Shown piece by piece: positions 3,543-7,757 of a stretch of 34,937 nt of DNA. This DNA comes from Agathobaculum sp. Its GTDB lineage: Bacteria > Bacillota > Clostridia > Oscillospirales > Butyricicoccaceae. Position 1 is the first letter of the stretch, and each line of letters starts with the position of its first letter. Both the position numbers and the translations under genes were made by a program. The notes under the pieces are model-generated. The model searched no databases, had not been told where the DNA came from, and saw only the letters and a list, made by a program, of their open reading frames with translations. Location: positions 1-34,937 of the forward strand of contig NZ_JALFLA010000069.1 in the NCBI RefSeq assembly GCF_022775115.1. The letters run 5' to 3'.

Positions 3543-3671
3543 TCAGCCCTGCCGATTTTTATCCAGACGGCCGAGCAGCGCGACCGCAAGCGCGATCAGC
3601 CCGAGCACCGTGAAGATGCCCGCCATGCCCTGCGCGAGCAGATGGATCGCCAGTATGACCGTTTGCTGCAT
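3543..3671 (-). CDS. 42-aa OadG-like membrane subunit
   Basis: This is a single-spanning peptide: MQQTVILAIHLLAQG, then a hydrophobic helix (about residues 15-35) and a basic tail ending DKNRQG. OadG/gamma subunits of sodium-pumping decarboxylases are small one-TM proteins that link the beta pump to the alpha subunit, and the GMAGIFTVLGLIALAVALL helix fits that family. The ATG at 3671 is preceded by GGGAGCG. It begins 19 bases after the OadB-like stop, so they form one operon. It lacks the usual C-terminal metal-binding and proline/alanine-rich tail, so it is unusually short. The frame extends upstream to 3767 but only as an overlap of the beta-subunit gene. Confidence 0.5.
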   Translation of the reverse strand: MQQTVILAIHLLAQGMAGIFTVLGLIALAVALLGRLDKNRQG

Positions 3672-3690
3672 CGTAATATCGCTCCCTTCT

Positions 3691-4818
3691 TCACATAAAG
3701 AACCCGAGGATGACGCCGCCTGCGACGACCGACGCGATCTGCCCCGCCACATTTGCGCCTGCCGCATGCATCAGCAGGTGGTTGGTACAGTCGGCTTCCA
3801 TGCCGAGCCGCTCGATCACACGCGCGGACATGGGGAAGGCCGATATGCCCGCCGCCCCGACCATCGGATTGACCTTGTTTTTGCAGAACAGGTTGAGCAG
3901 CTTGGCGAACAGCACTCCGCCGACCGAATCGAGCACGAACGCCAGCAGTCCGAGGCACAGGATGAGCAGCGTTTCCGGGGTGACGAATTGCTCAGCGCGC
4001 ATGGAAAATGAGATCGTCAGGCCGAGCAGCAGGGTGATGAGGTTGGCCAGCTCGTGCTGCGCGGTTTCGGACAGGCTGTGCAGCACGCCGCACTCGCGGA
4101 TCAGGTTGCCGAACATCAGAAAGCCGACGAGCGAGACCGACGCGGGCGCGACCAATCCCGCAATGATGGATACGATGATCGGAAACAGGATGCGCGTGCG
4201 GCGGCTGACCGCGCCGGGCGCATAGCGCATGTGCATCGCGCGCTCCTTTTCACTCGTCACCAGCTTGACGGCAAACGGCTGGATGATGGGCACAAGCGCC
4301 ATATAACTGTATGCCGCCACTGCGATCGCACCGGTGTAGCGCGAGCCGAGCACTTGGGAGACAAGGATGCTGGTCGGCCCGTCGGCCGCACCGATGATGC
4401 CGATGGAGGCCGCGTCGCGGATGTCAAAGCCGAGCGCCGCCGCCGCAATGATGGTCAGAAAAATACCGACCTGCGCGGCCGCGCCAAACAGGAACAGCTT
4501 GGGATCGGCCAGCAGCGGGCCAAAGTCTATCATCGCGCCGATGCCGATGAACAGCAGCAGCGGCAGCGCTTCGCTGGCCTCGATGCCCGTCTCGAACAGC
4601 CACTGGATGATGCCGTGCGCCTGCCCGCCGCCCTGCGTCACCTGATTGAGCACACCCGACAGCGGCAGATTGACCAGTATCGCGCCAAAGCCCATCGGCA
4701 GCAGCAGCGCCGGCTCATACTGCTTTTGGATGGCCAGCCAGATCAGCAGGCCGCCCACGCCGAGCATCACCGCCTGCTGCCATGTCAGCGAGAGCACACC
4801 CTCATACAAAAATGCCAT
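3691..4818 (-). CDS. OadB-family sodium ion-translocating decarboxylase beta subunit-like protein
   Basis: The 375-aa polytopic membrane protein matches OadB/GcdB/MmdB beta subunits, which couple decarboxylation of carboxybiotin to Na+ export. Residues 139-155 carry the signature IGIIGAADGPTSILVSQ; D146 corresponds to the essential aspartate of this motif. A second conserved region is near the C-terminus (NPMVGAAGISAFPMSARV, HAAGANVAGQI). The ATG at 4818 has GGGGG upstream; the longer frame to 4941 crosses the leader terminator and is rejected. No biotin-dependent alpha (carboxyltransferase) subunit lies next to it, only the 42-aa gamma-like gene. It sits behind a riboswitch resembling yybP-ykoY, so the pump, or a divergent cation exporter built on it, may answer manganese rather than carbon metabolism. 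The family call is firm; the substrate is open. Confidence 0.85.
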   Translation of the reverse strand: MAFLYEGVLSLTWQQAVMLGVGGLLIWLAIQKQYEPALLLPMGFGAILVNLPLSGVLNQVTQGGGQAHGIIQWLFETGIEASEALPLLLFIGIGAMIDFGPLLADPKLFLFGAAAQVGIFLTIIAAAALGFDIRDAASIGIIGAADGPTSILVSQVLGSRYTGAIAVAAYSYMALVPIIQPFAVKLVTSEKERAMHMRYAPGAVSRRTRILFPIIVSIIAGLVAPASVSLVGFLMFGNLIRECGVLHSLSETAQHELANLITLLLGLTISFSMRAEQFVTPETLLILCLGLLAFVLDSVGGVLFAKLLNLFCKNKVNPMVGAAGISAFPMSARVIERLGMEADCTNHLLMHAAGANVAGQIASVVAGGVILGFFM

Positions 4819-4884
4819 AGGAACCCCCTTGTTTGCACACACGGATGGAGACTGGAACGCCGGGGAGCAGGACAGGCCGCGGAT

Positions 4885-5020
4885 AAAAAAACAGACCTTC
4901 GCCTCCCGCTTGGGAAACGAAGGTCTGGTCGTTTGATGCAAAGCCAGAGCGGCGGCCGCCCATGCTTGTTGACTCTGCCGCGCGGCCGTGCCGCGCCGAC
5001 TACTCCCCTTTGTTTACCTG
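4885..5020 (-). promoter_or_regulatory. yybP-ykoY-like (Mn2+) riboswitch with intrinsic terminator
   Basis: The leader RNA has the two conserved blocks of yybP-ykoY aptamers: AAAGGGGAGTAG (5000-5011) and GTCAACA (4967-4973), separated by GC-rich stems. The P1 stem can form between 5007-5018 and 4913-4923. Bases 4918-4926 instead pair with 4893-4901 to make a terminator followed by seven T residues (4885-4891). The two folds share 4918-4923 and exclude each other. Ligand binding should stabilise P1 and allow read-through, an ON switch, as known for this Mn2+-sensing class. The assignment rests on motif recognition by eye. Confidence 0.7.
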
Positions 5021-5021
5021 C

Positions 5022-5051
5022 ATGGTAACATGGGGACAAACCGCTTGTCAA
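5022..5051 (-). promoter_or_regulatory. Promoter of the riboswitch-OadB transcript
   Basis: On the minus strand, TTGACA (5046-5051) and TACCAT (5022-5027) are separated by 18 bases, ending just before the aptamer. Confidence 0.6.
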
Positions 5052-5090
5052 GCGCAAAATGCGCTAAAATTCCGTTAAGGTGCGCAGCGC

Positions 5091-7367
5091 TCAGGGTGTG
5101 CTGCGCGTGTGGTATGCCGCGGGCGCAAAGCCGTCATAGACGTCGGCCAGCCCGACCGGCAGCCAGATGCCGCCCTCCTGCCGCATATGCACGCGCACGT
5201 CTTCGCTGCCGTCGCCAAAGCGCAGGCGCACAATGGCTGTCGTGCCGTTTTGGCTCTCGGTCACCGCGTCGATGCGGAAGGGACTGGTGTCCGGGGTGTG
5301 GCTGAAGATCGGCGTAATCGCACCCGCCGGGGTAGACAGCGCGCTGAGCGCGGCGCCGTTGAAGGTCTGCGCGCCCTCGTCCAGTTGCGGCCACGGCAGG
5401 CCCATTGCGTAATATAATCGGAATAAATCACTCTGCGTATAATTTGGAGCGACGCAGGCCTGCACATCGGTGATGACCGAGCGGCCGCCCTCCTGTCCGG
5501 TCGTCACAACATAGGCCGAGCGGTAGTCGGTCATGCCGCCGCCATAGCGCTGGAACACGACGATGTATTGCTCCGGCTTCTTGCCCGGCAGCAAAATAAA
5601 GTTGCGGTACGAGGGCGAGGAGCCGCCGAGCTTCCAGTTCCACGCATCCGCGTCCTGCTGGCGCTCGATGAATTTCTGCCGGTTTGCGGCCGATAGGATG
5701 GGGTACAGGTACTGACCGCTTTTGTAGGACACCGCGTGGGCGAACTGCTGGGTGAGGTCGGCAGTGTTGCGGGCGTTGCGGTCGTGCGCGTCCGTCCAGT
5801 CCTGCGGCAGCCAGCCCTGCCCAAATTGGTTGACAAGGATGATATGCGCTTCGCTCCCGTCGGCAAAGCGGTAGAGCACCTCGGCGACGCCCTCCGCCGA
5901 GCGGGAGTCGCCCCGGTAGACGACGCACGGGCCGACCGCGGCCACCGCGCCGCCCGCCAGCCCCAGCGTGCTCACCGCCGCGCGGGCGGGCGTGCGCAGG
6001 TCAAGCCCGGCAAGCTCCCACGCCGCGCCCTGCATATCCAGCAGGTCGGGCAGGCCGAGGTCGTTCTCATACAGCAGCCGAAACTCCTCAAAGCTGTGCA
6101 CACCGTCCGAGGTGTCCGCGATGATCTCGGTCTGCATGACCGCCGCCTTGCCGGCTTTTTCTCCAAACAGCAGCCGCTCGACCGTGCGCACGCGCGTTCC
6201 GTCGGCCTGGCGTTTGGCAAAGATCACATAGGTCTGCCCGCCCGCTGTTTTGACCGAATAGACGTGCCCGCTCTCGCGCGCCCACGCCTCGGCCAGCTCG
6301 GTGCGGCGCGTCTCGGTCAGCTTTTCCGCGTCCTCACCCACGGAGAACGCGCAGCCGAGCGACACCACCAGCACGGCCATCGCCAGCACAAGCGCCATGC
6401 CGCGCTTTTTGGCGCGCTTGTCAAACAAGCCCTCCAGCCGGTGCATCAGCGTCTTTTTGCCGCCCGTAAAGCAGGATACCAGTGCGCGCCGCTTGGCCTG
6501 CACCGCCGCCGCGCGCAGGATGGTTTCGCCGTAGGCGCGGCGCTGGGCACGGCTCATGCCGCGCGCGACCGCATCGTCGCATGCCAGCTCGATATCCTCC
6601 TGCGCAAAATAGGCCATCAGGTGTACGAGTGGGTTGAACCACTGCACCGCCCGCGCGAGCACGAGCGCCAGCTTGAGCCAAAGGTCGTGGTGCTTGTAGT
6701 GGGTCAGCTCATGGCGGATGACAAACGCCGCGTCGCGCGGGGACATGCTTTCATCGGGCAGATAGAGCACCGGGCGCACAAAGCCTGCCAGCATCGGGCA
6801 GTCCGCCGCGGGGGAGATGCGCAGCGGGATCGGCCGCGCGATGTCCAGCGCCCGTGCCGTCCGCTCGAACACGGCGCGCAGCGCCTCGCGCTCCGGCGCG
6901 CGTGCGTCACGGCGCAAGCGGCGCGCATAGCGCGTATAGCAGACAGCCTGCGCGCCCAGAAACAGCGCGCCGCCCGCCAGCCACAGCGCGGTCAGCAGCG
7001 CGGTGACGTTAAAGGTTGTCACCGGGTTGCGGTCGTACCGCTCGGCCACGGCGGCCTGCGTGTCGGTCAGCCAAGAATCGTTGGCCGGGTCGAGCACCTG
7101 CACCGCCGAGTGGCTCGCGCCCGAGGCGGGCAGGATCACCCGGTGCAGCAGATAGTTGGTGCGCGGGGTCACCTGCACGGGCGGCTCGGCCAGCGTAAAC
7201 TGCACCGGCGCCAGCAGGCGCAGCGCCAGCACAGCCCAGATCAGGCACATCGTCCGCGCGGGATAGTGCTTTTTGAGCGTTTGCCGAAGCAAAAGCGGCA
7301 CAAGCGCGGCCAGCGACACAGTCAGGCTGATCTGCACCAGGTCAAACAGCAGCTTTTCCCAATTCAT
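5091..7367 (-). CDS. M56-family (BlaR1/MecR1-like) membrane metalloprotease
   Basis: The 758-aa protein has N-terminal TM helices (about 7-28, 38-58, 118-142), the zinc-protease motif H219-E-x-x-H223 in RHELTHYKHHD, and ELACDD further on. Another TM lies at about 325-345, followed by some 400 extracellular residues. BlaR1-type proteases sense a signal outside and inactivate the BlaI-type repressor encoded beside them. Here the outside part is not a penicillin-binding domain, since I see no SxxK/SxN/KTG set. It contains two similar modules, each with an LF/LGLP segment, an A-x-S-x-L segment and R/F-GDGSE...WLP. So it probably senses something other than beta-lactams, such as a wall or envelope signal. 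The ATG at 7367 follows GGAGGG by seven bases and is 18 bases after blaI. Confidence 0.85.
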   Translation of the reverse strand: MNWEKLLFDLVQISLTVSLAALVPLLLRQTLKKHYPARTMCLIWAVLALRLLAPVQFTLAEPPVQVTPRTNYLLHRVILPASGASHSAVQVLDPANDSWLTDTQAAVAERYDRNPVTTFNVTALLTALWLAGGALFLGAQAVCYTRYARRLRRDARAPEREALRAVFERTARALDIARPIPLRISPAADCPMLAGFVRPVLYLPDESMSPRDAAFVIRHELTHYKHHDLWLKLALVLARAVQWFNPLVHLMAYFAQEDIELACDDAVARGMSRAQRRAYGETILRAAAVQAKRRALVSCFTGGKKTLMHRLEGLFDKRAKKRGMALVLAMAVLVVSLGCAFSVGEDAEKLTETRRTELAEAWARESGHVYSVKTAGGQTYVIFAKRQADGTRVRTVERLLFGEKAGKAAVMQTEIIADTSDGVHSFEEFRLLYENDLGLPDLLDMQGAAWELAGLDLRTPARAAVSTLGLAGGAVAAVGPCVVYRGDSRSAEGVAEVLYRFADGSEAHIILVNQFGQGWLPQDWTDAHDRNARNTADLTQQFAHAVSYKSGQYLYPILSAANRQKFIERQQDADAWNWKLGGSSPSYRNFILLPGKKPEQYIVVFQRYGGGMTDYRSAYVVTTGQEGGRSVITDVQACVAPNYTQSDLFRLYYAMGLPWPQLDEGAQTFNGAALSALSTPAGAITPIFSHTPDTSPFRIDAVTESQNGTTAIVRLRFGDGSEDVRVHMRQEGGIWLPVGLADVYDGFAPAAYHTRSTP

Positions 7368-7385
7368 ATCCCAACCCTCCAACTC

Positions 7386-7757
7386 CTACCGGCCTTGCGC
7401 GTCCAGAAAGGCGCGCAGCTCGTCGATATCCTTTGCCGTCAGCGCGCCTGCGCTGGACAGGCTGGCCACCAAATTGCCGACAGAGCCGCCGCACAGCCGC
7501 TCGACAAAGCTCTTGCTCTCGCGCTGGAGGTAGGCCTCCCGCCCGATGAGCGGCGCGTAGCAGTTGTGCCGCCCGGCCTTCTCGCACTTGAGAAAGCCCT
7601 TGTCGCACAGGCGTGAGAGGAAGGTCAGCACGCTGGTCGCCTTCCAGTCCTTATCCGCAAGCTGCTGCACCTCGGCCGCGGTCACGGGCGGCTCGAGCGA
7701 CCAGACAATCTGCATCACGGCAAGCTCCGCATCGGGCAGGCGTTTGATCTCTTTCAT
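7386..7757 (-). CDS. BlaI/MecI-family transcriptional repressor
   Basis: The 123-aa winged-helix repressor starts MKEIKRLPDAELAVMQIVW, the typical BlaI/MecI/CopY N-terminus, with the recognition region around WKATSVLTFLSRLCDKGFL. The C-terminal helices (about 80-120) form the dimer interface. Proteins of this family bind TACAnnTGTA-type dyads and are cleaved when the paired M56 protease is activated. It is the first gene of the blaI-blaR1 pair. Two dyads with CTA-N6-TAG cores lie upstream, one inside its own promoter, so autoregulation is likely. The ATG at 7757 has GGGAG upstream. The operon has no beta-lactamase gene. Confidence 0.85.
   Translation of the reverse strand: MKEIKRLPDAELAVMQIVWSLEPPVTAAEVQQLADKDWKATSVLTFLSRLCDKGFLKCEKAGRHNCYAPLIGREAYLQRESKSFVERLCGGSVGNLVASLSSAGALTAKDIDELRAFLDAQGR

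Follow-up and report, generated by a model that had tools for sequence, protein, structure and literature searches.

A decarboxylase sodium pump membrane pair without its enzyme subunit behind a manganese-type riboswitch leader in an Agathobaculum-related genome

In an Agathobaculum-related genome the membrane subunits of a sodium pump of the decarboxylase kind have been kept without the enzyme part, and they lie behind a leader of the manganese riboswitch type. The locus occupies positions 3543..5020, on the minus strand, of the 34,937-nucleotide stretch analysed here (the window, contig NZ_JALFLA010000069.1); a preliminary description made from the letters of this DNA had its extent and content right. 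Within it, an aptamer of the yybP-ykoY type and an overlapping terminator precede a homologue of the beta subunit of oxaloacetate decarboxylase (oadB) and a 42-amino-acid peptide related to the gamma subunit (oadG), with no gene for the alpha subunit (OadA). We give roughly even odds (a probability of about 0.5) to the reading that the pair is a Mn2+-induced, alpha-independent beta-gamma transporter of the elevator type with a role in Mn2+ export, either as the exporter or in support of it. The features of the locus, from its 5′ end, are as follows.

5022..5051, minus strand: sigma-70-like promoter TTGACA-18-TACCAT, just 5′ of the aptamer (one found against a mean of 0.1 in shuffles; a consensus match only)
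4914..5016, minus strand: aptamer of the yybP-ykoY (Mn2+) riboswitch type, 103 nucleotides (covariance models RF00080, R1 and R2)
5007..5015, minus strand: 5′ strand of switch helix P1.1, partner of 4915-4923 (pairs counted on alignment A3)
4967, minus strand: adenine at the position of the Mn2+-discriminating base, which is A48 in X. oryzae and A41 in L. lactis (correspondence placed by hand on the ACA context; PMC6754395)
4915..4923, minus strand: 3′ strand of P1.1, also in the 5′ arm of the terminator (A3 pair count and terminator call)
4892..4927, minus strand: predicted intrinsic terminator of 16 pairs followed by seven T (overlaps P1.1)
3691..4818, minus strand: oadB homologue of 375 amino acids, a member of the alpha-less clade of beta subunits (PF03977, TIGR01109, signature residues)
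3543..3671, minus strand: small OadG-related peptide, 42 amino acids, without the alpha-binding tail (NF040909, 26.4 bits, cut-off 25)

Judged from its sequence, the leader is of the yybP-ykoY (Mn2+) riboswitch type, and models built on the leaders of related bacteria support this. Model R1, made from 14 mntP leaders and one P-type ATPase-like leader (alignment A2) and containing no oadB leader, scores the window leader at 47.6 bits (E 8.8e-9) and also matches 25 other oadB leaders of the bacterial family that had been picked by motif, weakly so in L066 (E 0.012) and L063 (E 0.11). In the other direction, model R2, made from 24 oadB leaders with that of the window among them (alignment A3), recovers all 14 mntP leaders, 12 of them with E values between 2e-10 and 3e-6 and two less strongly (6.8e-5 and 0.0015), as well as the P-type ATPase-like leader (E 0.035); its 101 bits for the window leader are the score of a member of its own training set. 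Across the 2.19-Mb window genome R2 has two matches at E ≤ 0.01, the window leader itself and C66:9369-9473, which adjoins mntP (C66:8770-9213) just upstream, and R1 likewise marks two further sites there, one before mntP and a weak one (E 0.057) before a Na+/Ca2+-antiporter gene. That the two models find each other's targets bears out the earlier description of a yybP-ykoY-like aptamer, with the score from RF00080, the Rfam model of the class, staying below the gathering level. By analogy with its class, Mn2+ would be the ligand.

The shortfall in the Rfam score deserves attention. RF00080 gives the window aptamer 19.5 bits (E 0.0014 for the 321 bases searched) against a gathering score of 45; it has no match at E ≤ 0.001 over the whole window genome, and an Rfam scan of the full window at gathering level returns tRNA only. 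Run with stricter filters over 87 genomes of the bacterial family, RF00080 has 30 matches at E ≤ 1, spread over 27 genomes, and the gathering score is reached in none of the 87. By position, 16 of these places lie directly before mntP (PF02659 places) and four before oadB; by eye, one precedes a P-type ATPase-like gene and two precede exchanger-like genes, leaving seven unassigned. Because mntP leaders in this family also miss 45 bits, the Rfam cut-off is a poor judge here, and it was set aside for the aptamer. The preliminary description had made its aptamer depend on a covariance model, and on this point the outcome is divided: R1 recognises the leader, and RF00080 leaves it under the threshold together with the family's mntP leaders. 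As an observation in its own right, Mn2+ riboswitches are probably under-annotated in this bacterial family, given that no place in 87 genomes passes the cut-off, yet 16 matches stand before mntP. Rfam also holds a Na+-I (DUF1646) riboswitch family. That identity was considered for the window leader and rejected, with no match to that family at E ≤ 10 in 4780..5100.

The core of the aptamer is strictly kept. On an alignment of 66 oadB leaders made with R1 (A6), whose rows were known beforehand to match and which therefore leans towards the model, the discriminator adenine is present in 66 of 66 rows, and this base had not been used in picking them; GGGAGU and AGAC are each present in all 66 as well, with a GGGAGU-type pattern having selected the family rows. 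In riboswitch structures the corresponding adenine, A48 in X. oryzae and A41 in L. lactis, is invariant and coordinates Mn2+, and the window adenine shares its ACA context (PMC6754395). In helices P1.1, P1.2, P2, P3.1 and P3.2 of this model-fitted alignment, both partners vary at 21 of 23 pairs, and 89.4% of paired cells can pair against 32-39% in slid versions. An alignment of 24 close leaders made with MAFFT (A3) has both-side changes at 10 of 33 pairs and 88.1% of cells paired, and two P1.1 positions are unpaired in most of these close relatives (19 and 23 of the 24 rows). The leader as a whole, folded with its terminator included, reaches -78 kcal/mol (z -5.9) and beats 200 of 200 shuffles. 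Since P1.1 (5007-5015 with 4915-4923) and the terminator are built from the same bases, the two folds exclude each other, as had been claimed from the letters, and a terminator overlaps the 3′ strand of P1.1 in 60 of 64 oadB leaders (L127 and L132 left out). The L. lactis switch has the same layout, and there Mn2+ promotes P1.1 formation and readthrough (PMC11087558); Mn2+-induced antitermination is therefore to be expected of the window leader as well.

The genes behind the leader are those named in the preliminary description. The beta protein scores 489.7 bits with PF03977 and 415.8 bits with TIGR01109, both over cut-off, and the peptide passes the cut-off of NF040909, a sequence family named "OadG-related small transporter subunit". 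OadA and carrier queries taken from the window genome have no match in the 4,080 bases that surround the two genes (L003), so that the reported absence of alpha from this operon stands. The further possibility raised there, an alpha subunit elsewhere under the same control, is not cleanly borne out: the window genome has two more oadB genes, one on C53 behind a carrier-like frame near the contig start and one on C25 in an operon OadA-OadG-carrier-OadB that holds the genome's only PYC_OADA match, but this alpha subunit comes with its own beta subunit and its operon (L073) has no R1 match at E ≤ 10 in the approximately 450 nucleotides in view before OadA. As for the peptide, Salmonella gamma is seen bound to beta through residues 2-43, and deletion of its residues 61-84 strongly reduces alpha binding but not the binding of beta to gamma (PMC7274780, section 5 for the deletion). 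The 42-residue peptide of the window would therefore correspond to about the beta-binding part, without the alpha-binding tail.

The pairing of this leader with an alpha-less oadB recurs well beyond the window. It was examined in the best 80 alpha-less oadB loci of a scan that found more (the named-genome set, with flanks of up to 6 kb), some of which equal loci of the family set (L135 = L064, L145 = L040). The OadA query is empty at all 80 and the carrier query matches at one (L189, about 4 kb upstream), PF01039-type carboxyltransferases (methylmalonyl-/glutaconyl-CoA) not having been searched for; gamma is recognised by motif at 72 of the 80, with a median of 43 amino acids and five examples longer than 60. 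R1 finds a leader at 38 of these loci (E ≤ 1e-3), so the pairing that had been put forward as something to look for is indeed recurrent, and in 37 of them the leader ends 56-176 nucleotides before the oadB match. Three further leaders are weak but in place (L163, L164 and L182), and a strong R1 match on the opposite strand at L170 was left out of the count. The titles of leader-bearing genomes include Agathobaculum, Dysosmobacter, Oscillibacter, Pseudoflavonifractor, Colidextribacter, Lawsonibacter, Marasmitruncus, Christensenella, Blautia and Eisenbergiella, and the leader is absent from the named rows of Spirochaetota (three), Bacteroidota (three) and Chloroflexota (one). The remaining leader of the 38 (L183) is followed by a 542-amino-acid gene that by eye resembles a Na/phosphate cotransporter and then at once by oadB (L183:67-3056). 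At that locus two transporters stand behind one Mn2+-type switch. A conserved wider operon was sought and rejected: among frames of at least 100 amino acids within 4 kb of the 80 loci, the largest cluster is present at 9.

It is informative to consider where else these leaders occur. Over 25 genomes of the genus, R1 at E ≤ 0.1 finds 49 places in 24 genomes, which by position fall before mntP (21), before an alpha-less oadB (20) and at a third site (8), and none of them is at an alpha-linked oadB. In the window genome the third site is the antiporter gene already mentioned (TIGR00367, PF01699; leader L222:122-234, equal to G000:C30:12421-12533), with better scores in some sister genomes and, by eye, the same look in five others. 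This genus-wide search is a better control than one over the alpha-linked loci themselves, where R1 has no match at E ≤ 10 in 34 sources (32 distinct loci), most of which reach approximately 1.5 kb before beta and so miss the start of the alpha operon. Run over the whole class, R2 gave matches in 40 of 391 genomes, the window genome included, and 29 of the loci, assigned by eye, comprise 10 mntP-like, 10 P-type ATPase-like, two exchanger-like, two ABC-ATPase-like and two oadB cases, with three unassigned. Two oadB genes found in this way via their leader (L127 and L132; PF03977 confirmed) lie outside the family of the window, each with a short gamma-like frame.

Consistent with a change of role, the alpha-less beta subunits differ from their alpha-linked relatives at specific residues. 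We compared 120 alpha-less with 32 alpha-linked proteins, separated by identity to the window protein with the line at 52%; some rows are near-copies, and Salmonella numbering was placed by hand. OadA or a carrier stands beside beta at 32 of 32 alpha-linked loci and, with flanks of differing length, at 1 of 120 alpha-less ones (L189). The equivalents of the Na+-site residues D203, S382 and N412 (D146, S326 and N356 in the window protein), and that of E40, are conserved throughout, in all rows that have a letter there. In contrast, Arg at the R304 equivalent is found in all 32 alpha-linked proteins but in 16 of the 120 alpha-less ones, and Asn at that of N311 in all 32 and in 59 of the 120; the window protein has Ser and His at these two places. 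Conversely, four residues are fixed in the alpha-less set, namely E83 (120/120 versus 2/32), D297 (119/119 rows with a letter versus 0/32), Q360 in place of V416 (118/118 rows with a letter versus 0/32) and I97 in place of T148 (120/120 versus 0/32). A144 differs too (119/120), with a bias, as it was part of the search pattern for the 80 named loci. On a tree of 112 proteins (104 alpha-less and 8 alpha-linked, by a quick method with SH-aLRT only and with a long-branch warning) the alpha-less proteins make up one side of a starred branch with support 100. As far as such comparisons go, the alpha-less beta subunits are one clade with fixed differences. The leader label requires 18-19 changes on this tree, at least 10 of them forced by starred branches, which indicates that the leader was gained or lost many times.

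How might such a locus work? High intracellular Mn2+ would fold the leader, stabilise P1.1 and block the terminator, so that transcription continues into oadB and the small oadG. The two products may then come together, without alpha, in the form that the membrane core has in decarboxylase sodium pumps. In the absence of carboxybiotin the beta subunit should be a secondary transporter, and the pair would work as an elevator-type cation transporter of the CPA/CitS fold, which is the fold of the Salmonella protein, in whose cavity Na+ and H+ compete (PMC7274780). Its task would most likely be to bring down the Mn2+ level of the cytoplasm, probably through export of Mn2+ itself against H+ or Na+ via the old Na+ cavity, perhaps altered by the extra acidic and polar residues. 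The independence from alpha and the identity of the transported ion we infer, the latter by a step from regulation to substrate, and the role as Mn2+ exporter is suggested by association with mntP and the other cation transporters under the same leader. A class of riboswitch that turns on Mn2+ exporters, similar partners elsewhere in the genome and acidic residues newly fixed in the clade together make export of Mn2+, whether direct or indirect, the most economical reading. The preliminary description had proposed recruitment away from decarboxylation, and this gains support from the recurrence across families, the clade-wide residue changes and the loss of the gamma tail. A bolder version, which we hold tentatively and somewhat short of even odds, sees in the alpha-less OadB clade and its small OadG partners a new family of exporters for Mn2+ or for divalent cations in general; in it, a primary Na+ pump would have lost its biotin enzyme, changed at E83, D297 and Q360 and repeatedly gained a Mn2+ riboswitch.

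Several observations weigh against a Mn2+-responsive transporter that is independent of alpha. At 42 of the 80 named loci there is no leader at E ≤ 1e-3, and control by Mn2+ is therefore not universal. The mntP gene is present in the window genome too, and the idea that the pair replaces it was rejected, mntP being found in 25 of 25 genomes of the genus. The Asn at N311 persists in the 59 rows mentioned, and in Salmonella R304A and N311A inhibit decarboxylation only moderately, with Na+ binding hardly affected (PMC7274780, section 9). Furthermore, a PYC_OADA protein is encoded in 72 of the 80 named genomes (31 of 31 and 41 of 49, six of the 41 by a weak match of E 1e-30 to 1e-15) and in 35 of the 38 family genomes whose alpha-less locus was fetched, and a strict absence of alpha from these genomes was accordingly rejected. 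In genome G018 the OadA-OadG-carrier operon (L215, G018:C11:16500-22500) is missing the oadB that is present in its sister G001 between the carrier and a regulator gene (L216), and the sole beta found in G018 is the gene with the leader, here weakly scoring, which is how a partnership in trans would look. The PYC_OADA counts and the case of G018 speak for the view that the pair serves the OadA and carrier of the genome, in trans, as an additional set of beta and gamma subunits, giving an ordinary pump whose membrane part rises with Mn2+. We nevertheless think this improbable, for gamma is without the tail on which alpha binding depends, most alpha-less rows have lost the R304 equivalent, and the alpha-less proteins are a separate clade with fixed differences, against which OadA or a carrier adjoins beta at every alpha-linked locus; even the leader-bearing beta of G018 has residues of the alpha-less type. 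In addition, eleven genomes with an alpha-less oadB have no PYC_OADA match, namely G019 (97% complete), G070 (92%), G086 (83%) and eight metagenome-assembled genomes, though drafts may miss it.

The ion itself invites two other explanations. With all known Na+-site residues kept and Na+ and H+ competing for the cavity of the Salmonella protein (PMC7274780), beta-gamma could be a Na+(/H+) transporter that aids Mn2+ export indirectly, for example by providing the Na+ gradient for a co-regulated antiporter of the Na+/Ca2+ type, and a Na_Ca_ex gene (PF01699) does have the same type of leader in this genus. The fixation of E83, D297 and Q360, on the other hand, suggests a changed protein, and the antiporter leader is weak in the window genome; we regard this indirect role as a minority possibility, to be kept in mind. 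In another reading the leader would be a yybP-ykoY variant shifted to another ion, such as Ca2+, which the pair would then handle. The S. pneumoniae mgtA leader has been described as a Mn2+/Ca2+ case (PMC9495176), and on the 3′ side of the discriminator most close oadB leaders read AACA-AGCAUG in L3 where the mntP type reads AACA-UACU. However, the discriminator adenine is invariant in the oadB leaders, the two solved Mn2+ riboswitches also differ from each other in L3 (PMC6754395), one oadB leader (L040) has the mntP-type AACAUAC, and the P-type ATPase-like leader L086 has AACAGCAUGG. A shift of ligand thus seems highly improbable, and Mn2+ export, direct or supported, is the explanation that we prefer.

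It is also worth placing the locus among known systems. With mntP riboswitches of the yybP-ykoY class, including the C66 example of the same genome, the window leader shares the L1/L3 core, the opposition of P1.1 to an overlapping terminator and the reciprocal model matches, but it controls a decarboxylase-pump beta and gamma pair, and most of its close oadB relatives have an L3 loop of another type after the discriminator. The beta-gamma part of Salmonella oxaloacetate decarboxylase (6IWW, 6IVA; PMC7274780) is alike in beta family, in Na+-site residues and in the extent of gamma, approximately residues 2-43, whereas the window operon is without alpha and without the gamma tail, has Ser and His for R304 and N311, and carries E83, D297 and Q360. 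The Na+-I (DUF1646) riboswitch, which occasionally stands before an oxaloacetate decarboxylase gene, is a parallel as an ion riboswitch before a Na+-pump gene (PMC9337991), but the window leader belongs to another RNA class. In the open-licence literature, which did not include the two 2015 ligand-identification papers, we found no report of a yybP-ykoY or manganese riboswitch with oadB, and in the same literature nothing on the OadG-related small subunit; one Na+-riboswitch paper names yybP-ykoY only in its reference list, and a regulon survey of 2013 (PMC3766115) includes yybP-ykoY, its main text, as far as available, having no terms that begin with oad, sodium or decarboxylase. The parts are thus of known kinds and, as far as could be seen, their combination and an alpha-less clade of metal transporters appear new.

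If this reading is correct, a family of primary sodium pumps has yielded a transporter for metal homeostasis, with the energy source and possibly the ion changed within one fold, and the yybP-ykoY class gains one more type of transporter among its targets. Many genes that are now named oxaloacetate decarboxylase beta, most of them in Clostridia, would also gain a new interpretation that can be put to the test, and the riboswitch itself provides a direct assay. The recurrence in many bacteria hints at a kind of metal-ion exporter that has gone unrecognised.

Two smaller observations concern the surroundings of such leaders. In the class-wide search, leaders of the yybP-ykoY type at L129 and L131 stand before genes that by eye resemble the ATPase of an ABC transporter. 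To our knowledge, such a gene is not a usual target of this class. In the window, the neighbours upstream of the riboswitch, both on the minus strand, are a peptidase of the M56/BlaR1 type (5091-7382) and a regulator of the penicillinase-repressor type (7386-7757).

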